Shown here: positions 4,610-15,798 of the stretch, in pieces
How the letters are laid out: the number at the start of each line of letters is the position of its first letter
Numbering within the stretch: position 1 is the first letter of the stretch
IMG/VR virus record: IMGVR_UViG_3300044293_000370
Span: 1 to 35,807 of that record
Length of the DNA stretch: 35,807 bases
DNA from: a virus
Reading direction: 5' to 3' (one strand)
Notes under the pieces: model-generated
What the model was told of the DNA's origin: nothing
The model's input: the letters and a program-made list of their open reading frames with translations, nothing else
Database searches by the model: none
Program-made: the position numbers and the translations under genes

Positions 4610-4922
4610 GCCACGATCGCCAAATCGTGATAGTCGGCGTCTGAACAGAATAAGATTGCTGCCGTAGCCTCTCCCGTAATAAGTCGCCCAATTCAATCGC
4701 GCGCGCCGTGATCTCTTCGGGCGTACTCGGAAATCGCGGATAATTAATAAGCCCAACAGCAACCCCCTTTTCATCACCGTTTGTAAATATATAGTGTATT
4801 TTACTTACGGTGACGCAAAGGCCGACGAGATCGCAGTAATTCTGGCAAGCAGATTTAGCCTCCTGATAATCACCAGCAATAAAAATGGTAACTGGATAGC
4901 TAGGGCTACTTCTCTCAATCAT
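4599..4922 (-). CDS. Hypothetical 107-aa protein
   Basis: The start is set by ATG 4922, which overlaps the upstream stop (ATGA) and has GGAG seven bases before it; a longer reading to 4949 ignores this. The protein begins MIERSSPSYPVTIFIAGDYQ and has a beta-alpha-beta feel, with cysteines at CQNYCDLVGLCV, then a helix (EEITARAIELGDLLRERL). This region uses more AT-rich codons than its neighbours (e.g. 4740-4860), hinting at separate acquisition. No family recognised. Confidence 0.7.
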   Translation of the reverse strand: MIERSSPSYPVTIFIAGDYQEAKSACQNYCDLVGLCVTVSKIHYIFTNGDEKGVAVGLINYPRFPSTPEEITARAIELGDLLRERLRQQSYSVQTPTITIWRSWREQ

Positions 4923-5764
4923 AGGGCTTCTCCGCACCAAGTCCCGCACTCGGCGTCCATGTCAGGGTCATTGTCGAAGGCCCCAGAAAACAAGTCGCCC
5001 TGACTGCGGCTTGCCTTTATTATCTCGGCGTAGCTATATTCGTAGCGAAATGTGCTCCCCCTCGCGGCTTCCATGTCCGCCCACCATTGCAATGTGCCGG
5101 GTGCCGTCCGCTCCACTTCGAGCAGCTTGGGACGGGCTTTCAGGAAGCAGCCATCGCAATTACCCTCAAAAGGCAGTAATTGCAGGTCGAAATCCTGCGC
5201 CGCCCAAAAAGTGCGCACATCTCGATTGGTAACGCCCGCATCGGACAGCGGGCACACTGTCTTCCATCGCTCCTTGCCGAGCTCATTACGGGCGAGCGAG
5301 CGAGATACCCGCGTCGGCTCATCCGCTCGCAGGCCAATCACGTTTAGCCAGTGATCGTAGCCCGCCGCCCGCATGAAATCGCGCATAACCTTGATCTTGA
5401 GTTCGTCGGTGCAGAACCGCATCACGGGATTCGGCAACATCTTCTTACAGGCCAATAGTCCCTCGAAGGGTTCGCCATCCGCCGCCGCGCTGTTAAATCC
5501 AACCTCTTCGAACCGCTCATGATGGGCACCCTTTCTCGCCCGCCATTCAAGCCAGCGCACGCGCACATTCCAGCGGGTCGCGCACTCATGCACAAACCGC
5601 AGCGTTTCCCTCCGCTCCTTGCCGGTGTTGGCAAAGGTGACATGGACGTCATCGGGCAGCACCCCTCCATGCGCTTGGAGGATGCGCCAGAGCATATAGG
5701 CACTGGTGCGACCGCCGCTAAAGCTGATGAGGGCCGGGCCAGAGATCAGGAATGGATTGCTCAC
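4919..5764 (-). CDS. Phage PAPS-reductase-like PP-loop protein
   Basis: This 281-aa member of the adenine-nucleotide alpha-hydrolase superfamily has a PP-loop SFSGGRTSA at about residues 14-22. The family activates sulfate or uses ATP to transfer sulfur. Four Cys are placed as possible metal ligands: C106 (LLACKKML), C118 (RFCTDELK) and C203/C206 (NCDGC). Phage homologues are often annotated as phosphoadenosine phosphosulfate reductase, but a true sulfate-assimilation role is doubtful here. Fe-S or DndC-like thiolation chemistry is an alternative. GTG 5764 is chosen because it overlaps the upstream stop (GTGA), has GGAG eight bases before it, and gives a start similar to phage homologues I recall. 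ATG 5794 would add ten residues. Confidence 0.85.
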   Translation of the reverse strand: MSNPFLISGPALISFSGGRTSAYMLWRILQAHGGVLPDDVHVTFANTGKERRETLRFVHECATRWNVRVRWLEWRARKGAHHERFEEVGFNSAAADGEPFEGLLACKKMLPNPVMRFCTDELKIKVMRDFMRAAGYDHWLNVIGLRADEPTRVSRSLARNELGKERWKTVCPLSDAGVTNRDVRTFWAAQDFDLQLLPFEGNCDGCFLKARPKLLEVERTAPGTLQWWADMEAARGSTFRYEYSYAEIIKASRSQGDLFSGAFDNDPDMDAECGTWCGEAL

Positions 5765-5901
5765 CCGGACACACTCCAGGCTAACAGTGACCATACGCCG
5801 ATAACTCCGACGATCAGCATCCCCCCGGGCACAGCGCGCAGGATCACAAGCGCGTCGGACAGGGTGACGCGGGGGCGTGGGGGGCGATAGGCGCGGATCA
5901 T
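5761..5901 (-). CDS. 46-aa single-span membrane protein
   Basis: Starts MIRAYRPPRPRVTLSDALVI with a basic N-terminus and then a hydrophobic segment (about 27-43, GGMLIVGVIGVWSLLAW), likely N-in membrane topology. ATG 5901 overlaps the HNH gene's stop and its own stop overlaps the next GTG, so it is coupled on both sides. Function unknown. Confidence 0.65.
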   Translation of the reverse strand: MIRAYRPPRPRVTLSDALVILRAVPGGMLIVGVIGVWSLLAWSVSG

Positions 5902-6464
5902 GCGACGCCCTCCTGCTCTTGCTGAATTGCGGCGCGTGCCGCTTCCTTCGCCGCCAAGGGCAGGCGAGCCAGTGCGCGGTTGCATTCGCGATGCGCGAGG
6001 GCGAGATTGCCCAGCGCCCACGTCCCGCCGTTCGCTAGTGCGACTTTGTGCTCAATGGTCGCGTTGTCGCCGAGATCATGACCGCACACCCAGCACGCGT
6101 CGCCGTCGCGTTCGCGCAACCTGCGGCGCAGTTCGGCGGTGGCAGAGACCTTCCCGCGCCCGGCATTATGCCGAGCGTTGGCAGCGCAAATCGCGCCGCG
6201 CAGATCGTCCAGCAGCTTGCGATCCTCGCCGTAGGCAACAAAGCCGCGCGCGCCCCAATAGTCGGCGAATGCCACGTCAAGGGCTTCGCGCATCTGTGCA
6301 TGATCGAGAGGCGGCAGCGACAAATCCTGACGAATGCCAGTCATGCGCTGGCGGTTCCAGTTGCGCCGGAACGTGTCGATTGCATCACGGATAGAGAGCG
6401 GGCGCTCAAAAGCCCCCGCCAACACCGCCGCGTCAATGCGGGCCTGTTGGGCGGCGCGGCTCAT
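5898..6464 (-). CDS. HNH endonuclease
   Basis: The 188-aa protein has a helical N-terminal region and a C-terminal HNH fold. C124 and C127 (CWVCG) likely bind zinc with the downstream CN motif. IEHKVALANGG provides the first His (H139), LGNL the Asn, and AHRECN the last His (H158). HNH proteins nick or cut DNA; in phages they act in packaging, homing or defence against other DNA. This one is not beside the terminase. ATG 6464 overlaps the preceding stop (ATGA). It is the second gene of the PL transcript. Confidence 0.85.
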   Translation of the reverse strand: MSRAAQQARIDAAVLAGAFERPLSIRDAIDTFRRNWNRQRMTGIRQDLSLPPLDHAQMREALDVAFADYWGARGFVAYGEDRKLLDDLRGAICAANARHNAGRGKVSATAELRRRLRERDGDACWVCGHDLGDNATIEHKVALANGGTWALGNLALAHRECNRALARLPLAAKEAARAAIQQEQEGVA

Positions 6465-6778
6465 GCTGCCACCGGGGGGATGCGAGTTTCAACGGCGCGC
6501 GCCTCATACTGCGCGACAAGCACAGCATCGCGGGCAAAGTCGTAAAGGTAGTCCGCAAAGTCAGCGGCGCTTTCCGTTTCAGGATCGGGCAGGCCGCGCA
6601 TCCAGCGAATTTCGCTGAAGTCACCGCAATCAAGGGCGGTTTCTGCGGCGTCCAGCCATTCTCCCCACGAGAAAGGGCCTTCGGAAAGGCTACGCGAGAG
6701 ATTGTAGCGCACTTGGTGCGCAAGCATCTCGCGGCACTCGTCCGCAAGCTGCTCGTCGGTGGGGCAAGGGGTGGGCAT
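6461..6778 (-). CDS. Hypothetical acidic 105-aa protein, first gene of PL operon
   Basis: ATG 6778 has GGAG about seven bases upstream and lies about 23 bases beyond the predicted PL start. The protein is acidic and helical (begins MPTPCPTDEQLADECREM; later AADFADYLYDFARDAVLVAQ) and has no recognised domain. As the first product of a repressor-controlled leftward promoter it sits where phages often place early takeover or anti-host genes. That is inference from position only. Confidence 0.75.
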   Translation of the reverse strand: MPTPCPTDEQLADECREMLAHQVRYNLSRSLSEGPFSWGEWLDAAETALDCGDFSEIRWMRGLPDPETESAADFADYLYDFARDAVLVAQYEARAVETRIPPVAA

Positions 6779-6807
6779 CGGTCGTCTCCAGCTCGTGTTG
6801 CTGGTGA

Positions 6808-6837
6808 CGATATGGGGGAGATTTCCCCCGCTGTCAA
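6808..6837 (-). promoter_or_regulatory. Leftward early promoter PL with embedded operator
   Basis: On the minus strand, -35 TTGACA (6832-6837) is followed after 18 bases by ATATCG (6808-6813) as a -10-like hexamer. The whole spacer is occupied by a 16-bp operator. The layout copies that of PR almost base for base. Bound repressor would block the polymerase directly. Confidence 0.75.
6814..6829. promoter_or_regulatory. Repressor operator OL1
   Basis: GGGGGAGATTTCCCCC, a near-perfect palindrome, sits between the -35 and -10 of PL and is identical to the site in PR (7553-7568). It is the likely recognition site of the adjacent CI-type repressor, inferred from symmetry, recurrence and position. 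Confidence 0.75.
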
Positions 6838-6846
6838 ACTATTTCT

Positions 6847-6861
6847 GGGGGATTTTTCCCC
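6847..6861. promoter_or_regulatory. Second left operator-like site OL2
   Basis: GGGGGATTTTTCCCC is a variant of the 16-bp operator, about 33 bases (three helical turns) from OL1 and upstream of the PL -35. It lies just after the repressor stop codon and next to a 12-bp palindrome CCTAGCGCTAGG (6860-6871). It may allow cooperative binding with OL1. Confidence 0.55.
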
Positions 6862-6871
6862 TAGCGCTAGG

Positions 6872-7483
6872 TCATGCCTGTTTGGGCATCACAAACAGCA
6901 CGGGGGACGCCCACTCGACTGAGACGTTTTCCATGTCAGGCGCATTGAGCGAGCGCAGGGTGTATTTCCCAGGCACGCTGCCAAGCGCCAAGATTTTGAG
7001 GAATGTCCCGCCGTCGCTGGTGCGGACAGCGCAATATTTCCCGACATATTCGGGCAAAAGCCCTTCATGATCGCGGCGCACATAAATGATTTCGCCGTCT
7101 TCATACTTCGGGAGCATTGACGATCCGACCACGACAAGCGCCATTAAGCGCCCCCTCGTTAGCGGTGGGCGGGGTACCATTGGGAAGCCGTGGAAGCCAT
7201 TGGCTTCCAAGTCAACTTCAGCCATAAACAAAACTTCCCCGCCCGCGCCAACATTGCCGACAATAGGCACCATTGCCACCTGCCCGGTAAGCTGATCGAC
7301 GGGCATTTCCAACGCCTCGGCAATCCGGCGAAGCGTATCAATGCCAGGATTGTCTGTGCGGGTTAATAAATCCCTAACGGCGCTTTCGCTCAACTCTGCC
7401 CTTTTGGACAAGGAGCGGCGGCTGAAACCCTTTTCAGCCATCTGAGATTCGATCAGGGCGCGGATTCTTTCGATCTGGGACAT
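6872..7483 (-). CDS. CI/LexA-type phage repressor (HTH + S24 peptidase)
   Basis: This 203-aa protein keeps the phage silent and should self-cleave in the SOS response. The N-terminal HTH spans about residues 20-55 (SRRSLSKRAELSESAVRDLL). The C-terminal S24 domain has the cleavage site A80-G81 (VGNVGAGGEV), nucleophile S122 (GSSMLP) and general base K163 (GTFLKIL). Length is usual for the family. ATG 7483 lacks a clear ribosome site, so its translation may be weak or leaderless. It is flanked by PL on one side and PR on the other, and five operator-like palindromes surround it. Long upstream extension of the frame to 7834 is rejected because it crosses the PR control region. Confidence 0.93.
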   Translation of the reverse strand: MSQIERIRALIESQMAEKGFSRRSLSKRAELSESAVRDLLTRTDNPGIDTLRRIAEALEMPVDQLTGQVAMVPIVGNVGAGGEVLFMAEVDLEANGFHGFPMVPRPPLTRGRLMALVVVGSSMLPKYEDGEIIYVRRDHEGLLPEYVGKYCAVRTSDGGTFLKILALGSVPGKYTLRSLNAPDMENVSVEWASPVLFVMPKQA

Positions 7484-7504
7484 GCGACGATAATGCCATG
7501 TCTG

Positions 7505-7533
7505 ACCATAGCGTGGGGACGCACGAAATATCC
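7505..7533 (-). promoter_or_regulatory. Possible repressor maintenance promoter (PRM)
   Basis: A -10-like TATGGT (minus strand, 7505-7510) lies 22 bases before the repressor ATG. No -35 consensus is present at the right distance; the expected -35 position falls inside operator site OR2 (7521-7536). A weak promoter with an operator at its -35 region fits repressor-stimulated self-expression as in lambda. This is tentative. Confidence 0.3.
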
Positions 7534-7536
7534 CCC
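7521..7536. promoter_or_regulatory. Second right operator-like site OR2 (degenerate)
   Basis: On the minus strand it reads GGGGGATATTTCGTGC: one half matches the operator GGGGGAGATTTCCCCC and the other half is degenerate. It is centred about 32 bases from OR1, upstream of the PR -35, mirroring the OL1-OL2 spacing. Confidence 0.5.
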
Positions 7537-7544
7537 ATGAGGGC

Positions 7545-7575
7545 TTGACGGCGGGGGAGATTTCCCCCATATCTA
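7545..7575 (+). promoter_or_regulatory. Rightward early promoter PR with embedded operator
   Basis: -35 TTGACG (7545-7550) is followed by an 18-19 base spacer holding the operator, then ATATCT/TATCTA (7569-7575). Transcription should begin within a few bases of ATG 7580, so the first message may be leaderless. The architecture mirrors PL. Confidence 0.72.
7553..7568. promoter_or_regulatory. Repressor operator OR1
   Basis: GGGGGAGATTTCCCCC, identical to OL1, fills the spacer of PR between -35 and -10. Occupancy would prevent transcription of the Cro-like gene and the rightward early operon. Confidence 0.75.
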
Positions 7576-7579
7576 GGGC

Positions 7580-7786
7580 ATGAAAACCCTTCTCGAAGAT
7601 ATTCAGGCTTTCATCGCCGCGCATGAGTTGAGCGAAAGTCAATTCGGCGTCCTCGCGCTTGGGGATAAAAACCTTGTCCCCGACATTCGCGGGGATCGGC
7701 GTGCGAGGCCGCGCAGGCTTTGGCCGGAAACCGAAGCCAAGGCGCGTGCCTTCATGGCACAATACACGGCGGAGCGCGCAGCATGA
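7580..7786 (+). CDS. Cro-like small DNA-binding regulator
   Basis: The 68-aa protein is the first gene from PR and divergent from the repressor, the position of Cro. It begins MKTLLEDIQAFIAAHELSES and continues with a compact helical pattern (QFGVLALGDKNLVPDIR...). Similar short proteins ending in WPETEAKARAFM are, as I recall them, common in sphingomonad prophages and sometimes called transcriptional regulators. No ribosome site is visible: the ATG is only five bases after the -10, suggesting leaderless translation. Its stop overlaps the next ATG. Confidence 0.75.
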   Translation: MKTLLEDIQAFIAAHELSESQFGVLALGDKNLVPDIRGDRRARPRRLWPETEAKARAFMAQYTAERAA

Positions 7787-8007: not shown

Positions 8008-8354
8008 CGGGGGGGAGTGTCCCCCACTTTTTGTTTGCCCCTGACAGGGAGAGTTCTCTTAGGGCGGTGTCTCGCGCGCTGCTGAAAGTGCGCGCGCTTG
8101 ACGGCATGACGATCCCCAAAGCGGCTAATGCGCTGGCGTGCAGTCCTGACACGATCAAGGATGCAACCAACGAACTGACGTTGCTCACCTTCGATAAGAT
8201 CGCGCGCCTTATCTATCTGTTCCCCGAACAGTGCGAGGCCATCTTTGAGCTTTGGAACCGGGGGCTGGATGCGCTGACCGCGGAAGAGCACAAGGCCGCA
8301 ATCGAGCATCACACCGCCGCGCTGGTGCGCCTGACTCAGGGGGTGAAGTCGTGA
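8004..8354 (+). CDS. Putative HTH regulator of the early operon
   Basis: The 116-aa protein has a central segment resembling a helix-turn-helix (about 32-60, LDGMTIPKAANALACSPDTI). After it come FDKIARLIYLFPEQCEAIF and a helical tail. It looks like a small phage transcription factor, possibly in the CII position, but no exact family is recognised. ATG 8004 overlaps the preceding stop (ATGA). An operator-like palindrome (8011-8025) covers its first codons. Its stop overlaps the next GTG. Confidence 0.65.
   Translation: MTGGSVPHFLFAPDRESSLRAVSRALLKVRALDGMTIPKAANALACSPDTIKDATNELTLLTFDKIARLIYLFPEQCEAIFELWNRGLDALTAEEHKAAIEHHTAALVRLTQGVKS
8011..8025. promoter_or_regulatory. Operator-like palindrome over a start codon region
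   Basis: GGGGGAGTGTCCCCC resembles the repressor operators but is one base shorter and differs in the centre. It begins four bases after the ATG triplet of the 8004 gene. No promoter is visible around it, so it could be a roadblock site, or fortuitous G/C symmetry. Confidence 0.35.
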
Positions 8355-14009: not shown

Positions 14010-14465
14010 ATGGGCAAGGTAACTAAACTCACTGACGCCGTTCTCATGGCAATCTGTGAAGACGTGGCAAACGGCAAAACCATGAGCGCCGCAGCCAGGG
14101 AACGCGGGGTAACGCCGTCAGCCGTTCGCAAGGCGTTGCTGCGCGACGATACGATGTTTCAACTTTCCTCGCACGCGCGCGAACTGGGCTGCGATGCGCT
14201 TGCCGATCAGTGCATTGAGATCGCGGATGGTGCTGGTGACCCGCAGGATAAGCGCATCAAGATTGACGCGCGCATTCGACTGATCGGCAAGTGGTCGAGT
14301 CGCTACAGCGACAAGGTGACGGTGGAGAACAGCACCACGGTGACGCACAAGTATGACCTCGACAGCATCCCGGACGCGGAGCTTGACCAGCTTGAGCGCA
14401 TCCTTGCCCACGCTGCAAGAAGTAAGGGCGGCGAAGGCGAGGCGGTCGCTTCTAGCGTTCACTGA
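14010..14465 (+). CDS. terS: Terminase small subunit
   Basis: The 151-aa protein has an N-terminal HTH (about 20-45, KTMSAAARERGVTPSAVRKA) that would bind the packaging start site. Then come a conserved helix ELGCDALADQCIEIADGAGD and DARIRLIGKWSSRYSDK, typical of alphaproteobacterial/P22-like TerS. The C-terminal tail would contact TerL. ATG 14010 has AGGGG about 10 bases upstream. It overlaps TerL in another frame, the usual order. Confidence 0.88.
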   Translation: MGKVTKLTDAVLMAICEDVANGKTMSAAARERGVTPSAVRKALLRDDTMFQLSSHARELGCDALADQCIEIADGAGDPQDKRIKIDARIRLIGKWSSRYSDKVTVENSTTVTHKYDLDSIPDAELDQLERILAHAARSKGGEGEAVASSVH

Positions 14466-15798
14466 ATACACGCTGCCGCAGTATCAGCGGGCGGCGCATC
14501 ATGAATTGATCGCGGCGCGGCTTGAAGCGGTCGAACGGGGCGAGGTCGATCGCCTCATGATCTTTATGCCGCCGAGGCACGGCAAGTCAGAGCTGGCGAG
14601 CAAGCGGTTTCCGGCTTGGTGCTTGGGTCGAAAGCCTGATCGGCAGATCATCGCTGCGAGTTACAATAGCGACCTTGCTAATGACTTTGGGCGCAGCGTT
14701 CGCAACCTGATGGCTGAACCTGAGTTCGGGCAGGTCTTTAATGGCGTGACGCTCGCGCCGGATAGCCAGGCGGCGAACCGGATGAACACGAACCGGGGTG
14801 GAGCCTATGTTGCCGCCGGTGTCGGAACTGCGGTTACAGGGCGCGGGGCGCACATTGCGTTGATTGACGACCCGTTCAAGGACCGGGAGGAGGCGGACAG
14901 CGAGCGCCGCCGCGAACTGGTGTGGGATTGGTATAGATCGACGCTCTACACCCGCTTGATGCCGGGCGGCGCAATCGTTCTGATACAGACCCGATGGCAC
15001 GAGGACGATCTTGCGGGGCGATTGCTTCAGCAAGAGTCCGAGCAATGGGATGTGCTGGAGCTTCCGGCGCTGCATCCTGAGCGCGGCGCGCTTTGGCCGG
15101 GGTGGTATGATGAAGCGGCCCTAGCGCGTATCAGGGACACGATTGGGCCGCGTGAATGGTCGGCGCTGTATCAGCAACGCCCGCAGCCTGACGAAGGCAC
15201 GTTCTTTCGCCGAGAGTGGTTCGGCGAGTGGGGTGCCCTGCCGCACTGTCGTTTCTATGGGACAAGTGATTACGCGGTCACGGATGGCGGCGGGGACTAC
15301 ACGGTCCACACGGTATGGGGCGTTGACGCGAAGGGCGACATCTACCGCGCGGAGCGATGGAAGGGCCAAACCGCCTCGGATGAGTGGATTGAGCGCAAGC
15401 TTGACATGGTGGCGAAGTGGAGACCGCTGTGTTGGTTTGGTGAAGGCGGCGTGATTCAGAAGGCGGTCGAGCCAATGCTGCGCCGCCGGATGCGTGAGCG
15501 CGGGGTGCATTGCCGCATGGAGTGGTTGCCTAGCGTTGCTGACAAGCCGACGCGGGCGCGCAGTTTCCAGGCGATGGCCGCAACGGGGCGGGTGAAGTTC
15601 GAGCGCGGGGCGGACTTGAGCGAGTTCCTGGTGTTCCCTGCTGGTAAGCATGATGACGAAGTAGACACCGCTTCGCTGATCGGGCGGGCGATAGATCAAG
15701 CGCATCCAGCGATTGTAGCAGCGCGGCCTGATACAAAAAAGCGCGATCGGTGGGCGTTCAAGGACGAAGGGAGCGACCTCAATTGGAAGACTCTCTGA
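14392..15798 (+). CDS. terL: Terminase large subunit
   Basis: Packages DNA into the prohead. The N-terminal ATPase has Walker A PPRHGKSE (about residues 60-67) and Walker B HIALIDDP (about 155-161). The C-terminal RNase-H-like nuclease has its first Asp in YGTSDYAV (about 293) and last acidic pair in HDDEVD near the end. The frame is open from ATG 14353, but that would overlap TerS by 113 bases. TTG 14392, with GGAG 10 bases upstream, is preferred, giving 468 aa, normal length. The end overlaps the portal gene by 16 bases. Confidence 0.93.
   Translation: MSASLPTLQEVRAAKARRSLLAFTEYTLPQYQRAAHHELIAARLEAVERGEVDRLMIFMPPRHGKSELASKRFPAWCLGRKPDRQIIAASYNSDLANDFGRSVRNLMAEPEFGQVFNGVTLAPDSQAANRMNTNRGGAYVAAGVGTAVTGRGAHIALIDDPFKDREEADSERRRELVWDWYRSTLYTRLMPGGAIVLIQTRWHEDDLAGRLLQQESEQWDVLELPALHPERGALWPGWYDEAALARIRDTIGPREWSALYQQRPQPDEGTFFRREWFGEWGALPHCRFYGTSDYAVTDGGGDYTVHTVWGVDAKGDIYRAERWKGQTASDEWIERKLDMVAKWRPLCWFGEGGVIQKAVEPMLRRRMRERGVHCRMEWLPSVADKPTRARSFQAMAATGRVKFERGADLSEFLVFPAGKHDDEVDTASLIGRAIDQAHPAIVAARPDTKKRDRWAFKDEGSDLNWKTL

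Follow-up and report, generated by a model that had tools for sequence, protein, structure and literature searches.

What kind of switch is formed by a repressor gene flanked by two outward-facing promoters that carry the same operator? The locus considered here is part of a virus record of 35.8 kb, the whole of which we refer to as the window, and which encodes an integrase, a RecT-like protein, an HNH nuclease, a PAPS-reductase-like protein and a terminase. We consider it highly probable that the region is a temperate-phage immunity switch built like that of lambda, a judgement that covers the whole mechanism proposed below, its hairpin part included. Scans of viral contigs yielded about 30 distinct relatives of the repressor, with 43-76% identity, and the conservation of the switch was followed in the window together with 20 of these relatives. 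The features of the locus are collected in Table 1.

Table 1. Features of the switch region, with positions given for the window
Feature	Position	Strand	Description
First PL gene	6461-6778	-	105 aa; no family match
Inverted repeat/hairpin	6782-6810	-	Straddles the predicted PL start; fold -15 kcal/mol, z -4.86
PL core	6809-6837	-	-35 TTGACA 6832-6837; OL1 6814-6829; -10 CATATC 6809-6814
OL2	6847-6862		Centre 33 bp from OL1; score 13.7, fourth best in the window
Repressor gene	6872-7483	-	203 aa; CI-type, N-terminal HTH and S24/LexA-type domain
OR3 slot, decayed	7484-7499	-	ATGGCATTATCGTCGC, abutting the repressor ATG; palindrome score -23.6
OR2	7521-7536		Centre 32 bp from OR1; score 8.3, sixth best in the window
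PR core	7545-7573	+	-35 TTGACG 7545-7550; OR1 7553-7568; -10 CATATC 7568-7573
cro-position gene	7580-7786	+	68 aa; small protein, predicted to be helical and HTH-like; 25-member alignment
Terminator-like hairpin and T-run	8009-8034	+	GGGGGGGAGTGTCCCCC; in the PR operon after short genes, placed like lambda tR1

Two predicted outward-facing promoters with one operator

The sequence TTGACRGCGGGGGARATYTCCCCCATATC occurs in exactly two copies in the 35.8 kb, facing outward as the cores of PL and PR, and in no copy in dinucleotide shuffles; within both copies lies the exact 16-mer GGGGGAGATTTCCCCC, the operator that we call OL1 and OR1. To follow it through the family, an operator matrix was built from OR1 of the window and 20 relatives, and both flanks of the repressor gene were scanned. 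OR1 was always found inside the PR spacer, and OL1 inside the PL spacer in all 21 genomes, with OL following the repressor gene either immediately or several hundred bases later, depending on the genome. When scored with the relatives' matrix, OL1, OR1, OL2 and OR2 are the first, second, fourth and sixth best 16-mers of the window. These results bear out an earlier note on this DNA in two of its claims, that PL and PR are mirror images with one operator inside both spacers, and that the repressor gene, here an HTH/S24 gene, lies between them. Of the geometric details in that note, the 18-base spacer followed by ATATC is correct if measured to ATATCx, but the likelier -10 is CATATC, which leaves 17 bp. 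Similarly, the identical geometry of the two promoters holds in the window's own subclade only, while in the other relatives OR1 is 2 bp nearer to the -35 than OL1 is.

The -10 hexamers of PL and PR are poor sigma-70 matches, and a standard promoter scan detected neither promoter. In the relatives, PL has a CATAnC-like hexamer, then 6 nt and then usually an A, and in the window the A at 6802 is the predicted PL start. The predicted PR start is A7580, the first base of the cro-position ATG, which would make this transcript leaderless. The distance from OR1 to this ATG is 15 nt in most relatives outside the window clade; within the clade it is mostly 11 nt, with two members at 12 and 14, and this near-constancy places the predicted PR start on or beside the ATG. 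The cro-position protein itself has no sequence family match. Its model is helical (pLDDT 82.8); it weakly resembles the folds of 434 repressor, P22 c2 and C.Esp1396I, and its HTH neighbours have Z values of 5 to 6.6, which is common-fold level only. Lacking a family match and having no more than weak HTH neighbours, the gene is likely to act as Cro by its position only, and we do not name it Cro on structure alone.

Two operator-like sequences were seen elsewhere. The stem of the terminator-like hairpin GGGGGGGAGTGTCCCCC at 8009-8034 resembles the operator, and the third best 16-mer of the window (score 14.4) is an isolated operator-like sequence at 902-917, inside the integrase gene, which may be chance.

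Second and third operator sites

Beyond OL1 and OR1, each promoter has a second site at a conserved distance. Sixteen of the 21 genomes have an OL2 with a score above 13, at 30-33 bp from OL1 in every case, and 20 have OR2 at 31-33 bp inward of OR1. OR2 is not a full palindrome: it combines a single good half-site (ATATCCCCC) with a degenerate half, and this poor half is a conserved non-operator sequence of the CGCGAAAT type. Hence, the weaker operators that had been proposed 32-33 bp upstream of the promoters do exist and are conserved, with the qualification that the one at OR consists of one half-site only.

A third site, OR3, is found in 18 of the 21 genomes at 68-70 bp from OR1, with its last base touching the repressor start codon, so that OR1, OR2 and OR3 follow each other at 0/+32/+69 in these genomes. 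The presence of OR3 in so many genomes marks the family as having a lambda-type switch of OR1/OR2/OR3 and OL1/OL2, with 32/37 bp spacing. The third slot mostly holds TGnGATAnn or a near variant, that is, an extended -10 located 12 nt before the repressor start codon, and at this distance the repressor mRNA is predicted to be leaderless. GATATT in OR2 had also been considered as the -10 of PRM, but was dropped, as the extended -10 in OR3, at its fixed 12 nt before the start codon, fits better.

The window has two OR sites and a decayed third slot, in which the extended -10 of the predicted leaderless PRM (TGG-CATTAT) and the spacing are kept while the palindrome is gone. Could this be a genuine two-site switch, with two sites each at OR and OL and a repressor gene without third-site autorepression? 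The score of the window's slot, -23.6, is far below that of any operator, and two relatives, L002 and L003, likewise keep the slot with no scoring site in it. However, this position is occupied by a third site in 18 of the 21 genomes, the window retains both the slot length and the -10, and a local loss is more likely than a family design; we consider a two-site design somewhat unlikely. Rather, the window is probably a derived case with a decayed OR3 palindrome. The earlier notion of a two-site design unlike lambda therefore captures the absence of a third palindrome in the window, but neither the third operator of the family nor the placement of the first operators: in lambda, OR1 and OL1 also lie between -35 and -10, such that an operator in the spacer is no difference from lambda.

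By their spacing, OR1 and OR2 are three helical turns apart and on the same face of the DNA, while OR2 and OR3, at 37 bp or 3.5 turns, are on opposite faces. This arrangement may reflect a cooperative pair of OR1 and OR2, with OR3 acting alone in autorepression. As OR2 has only a half-site, cooperativity is a guess from the spacing, and all that the 32-33 bp indicate is a fit with same-face pairing of the sites.

A predicted hairpin across the PL start

The most interesting part of the switch is the PL-leader hairpin. Its 3' arm holds the Shine-Dalgarno sequence GGAG (6786-6789) of the first PL gene, and its outer 5' arm lies upstream of the predicted start. In all 21 genomes, predicted folding pairs the Shine-Dalgarno region of the first PL gene with the stretch that separates the PL -10 from the predicted start; this 5' arm is often CTCC, most often followed by A. 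When the PL leaders were folded from 9 nt after the operator, they gave weak structure, as the repeat emerges only if the sequence from the -10 to the start is included. The 3' arm of L015 and L026 is located further downstream and is visible only in a longer fold, and in L008 the longer fold of the leader prefers a different structure. Pairing tends to be stronger between a 5' arm and its own leader than between arms and leaders combined by shuffling (0 of 20000 permutations); when the arm is restricted to 8 nt that all precede the start, the count is 0 of 5000, with control segments being weaker. A second clade and a Sphingomonas prophage, which were not used in finding the pattern, have similar repeats, and altogether the repeat was seen in the window, L002-L027, L009, L011, L025, L031, L033 and L053. 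The first PL genes vary in length and in N-terminal sequence among the phages; the hairpin therefore seems to belong to the switch, not to the gene.

What could such a hairpin do? The repressor gene and the PL operon are co-directional, and no terminator between them was found in the window. The PL start predicted from the -10 and the common A falls inside the repeat and would leave out the 5' arm. We infer that the first PL gene could not be translated from RNA that reads through from the repressor gene, but could be from transcripts initiated at PL, which would be devoid of the outer 5' arm. Alternatively, the PL transcript might contain the entire repeat, which would then stabilise the 5' end or act as a riboregulator instead of silencing read-through. 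Such a role would agree with its conservation and with its ending on the Shine-Dalgarno sequence, and the PL start is a prediction. Yet the 5' arm is no further than 6 nt from the -10, and most genomes then have a C followed by an A seven bases past the hexamer, where transcription usually starts; an RNA with the whole arm would need to start almost inside the -10. We regard an in-transcript hairpin as unlikely, and favour the silencing of read-through RNA.

There is a precedent in phage T4, where leader hairpins of gene e, soc and I-TevI hide the ribosome-binding site in read-through RNA, and where the gene e RNA from a promoter inside the repeat has no 5' arm and is translated (PMC3014915). 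In T4, however, the choice is between early and late transcription, whereas here it would be between repressor read-through and PL, on differing first genes. We found no description of such a PL leader in the open-access papers searched, a limited set of incomplete coverage.

The repressor and its probable operator specificity

The repressor matches HTH_26, HTH_3 and Peptidase_S24 of Pfam as well as the transcriptional repressor family phrog_4, and its model (pLDDT 84.5) has Foldseek matches to lambda CI and 186 CI. Ala80-Gly81, Ser122 and Lys163 are invariant across the repressor alignment, suggesting that the repressor may undergo SOS cleavage.

Evidence for the pairing of repressor and operator comes from residue 34 in the recognition helix. 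A serine at this position goes with GGGGG half-sites at both operator pairs in nine of nine cases (one half-site being TGGGG), and a threonine with GTGGG, GTGTG or mixed half-sites in 12 of 12. Residue 34 thereby predicts base 2 of the half-site in all 21 genomes (Fisher p 3e-6, a value that overstates the association, since it reflects few independent changes, two in the best tree and at least one forced), and it is the sole two-state protein column that separates the two groups perfectly. L023, with Ser34 and GGGGG sites, is placed by the best tree apart from the window clade, though there may have been a single origin. Among more distant repressors, the accompanying sites are GTGTG palindromes or, in one group, of the GGTWGGA type; the switch layout recurs with GTGTG palindromes in a distant clade and in the prophage of a Sphingomonas parapaucimobilis plasmid. 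As the operators change with the recognition helix in 21 of 21 genomes, binding of the repressor to these palindromes is strongly supported. It is very improbable that the palindromes serve a host regulator or the cro-position protein instead: Cro proteins normally share CI operators, and binding by the repressor is a prediction from sequence, but the operator follows repressor residue 34 throughout, and the high-scoring sites of the window cluster next to the repressor gene.

The proposed switch and its relation to known systems

From the positions, the conservation, the operator/helix association and the cognate pairing, all established by sequence, we infer binding, cooperativity, start sites, autoregulation and translational silencing as follows. 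The CI-type repressor would bind the GGGGGAnATnTCCCCC palindromes, and its occupation of OR1 and OL1 in the spacers of PR and PL would turn the lytic operons off. Second dimers at OR2 and OL2, three helical turns upstream and on the same face, would bind cooperatively. The cI gene would be transcribed from PRM, whose extended -10 adjoins the start codon and whose predicted start is 7483 (-), and neither the cI nor the cro mRNA would have a leader. In most relatives, excess repressor would occupy OR3, on top of the PRM -10, and shut its own gene; in the window, with the palindrome lost and the -10 kept, the repressor would escape this autorepression. Finally, the hairpin would hide the Shine-Dalgarno sequence of the first PL gene in repressor read-through RNA, but not in PL-started RNA.

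In lambda, PL and PR point outward around cI and share operators, cI is leaderless when transcribed from PRM, OR3 lies at PRM, and the operator centres are spaced by about 23-24 bp. The present switch resembles it in the outward PL and PR flanking the repressor gene with a shared operator at both, conserved in the relatives, and, as judged from sequence and model, in a repressor with an N-terminal HTH and a C-terminal S24 domain with an Ala-Gly site and a Ser/Lys pair. It differs in its unrelated operator sequence, in centres 32 and 37 bp apart, in having two OL sites, in the lost OR3 palindrome of the window, in the predicted leaderless cro and in the Shine-Dalgarno hairpin across the PL start. 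Individual traits of the family recur in the immB regions of the telomere phages N15, PY54 and phiKO2, which share the set of three OR and two OL sites (N15) and the leaderless cI and cro (PY54). OL and the promoter of repA, a replication gene, overlap in N15, and the telomere phages have different hosts. N15 has its three OR sites between repressor and cro, in addition to two OL sites, and in PY54 both the cI and the cro mRNAs have been mapped as leaderless (PMC4488713). The lambdoid repressor switch of the Stx phage 933W does without OL3 (PMC3317979), and its repressor apparently lacks cooperative binding to adjacent sites.

Taken as a two-layer switch, in which the repressor blocks transcription from PL and the start-point hairpin blocks translation of read-through RNA, and which has leaderless cI and cro and a phase difference between 32 and 37 bp, the system may or may not constitute a separate and widely distributed version of the lambda design; we see the two outcomes as evenly balanced. 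If it does, lysogenic transcripts would be unable to make the first PL protein, whichever gene that is, and helical phase would separate the cooperative pair from the autoregulatory site. The hairpin, if confirmed, would complement prophage repression with a translational safeguard governed by the starting point of the RNA. The approximately 30 relatives form a phage family, linked to Sphingomonas, in which operators, promoters and repressor specificity are readable from sequence, and which displays an apparent natural loss of the third site as well as a specificity change tied to one recognition-helix residue.

Host and neighbouring genes

Which bacteria do these phages infect? A prophage-like region on the Sphingomonas parapaucimobilis plasmid encodes a 42% relative of one of the repressor relatives and matches the switch layout, and the host is likely to be found among Sphingomonadaceae or Sphingomonas-like bacteria. 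Searching genome contigs with the repressor gave a 30% relative in Bradyrhizobium as the sole match, and a search of 385 genomes of its class gave no match at 1e-40, which is uninformative either way. The switch region had no blastn match among phage records, and Rfam returned sub-threshold chance matches only.

The terminase of the window (14353-15798, +) shares 76% identity with the terminase of Pam1, which was deposited as a phage of Pseudanabaena, a likeness to a cyanobacterial phage that stands against the Sphingomonadaceae to which the immunity region points. Pam1 was not matched in the repressor search, and the CI gene of its record differs in size. The host of Pam1 or of the window may be misassigned, or the virion module may be widely shared.

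Several observations concern neighbouring genes. Downstream of PL, a PAPS-reductase-family gene (4919-5794, -) is adjoined by the HNH nuclease gene (5898-6464). In L009 and L011, HIRAN-like reading frames lie between repressor and PL, the position of rexAB in lambda, and an annotated HIRAN-domain gene is found beside the repressor in the Sphingomonas plasmid record (L053:3542-3964). In the same record, the annotated start of the HTH protein (L053:2800-3588) is seemingly too far upstream, and a leaderless ATG right behind GTGTGATAGATCACAC suits the family better.
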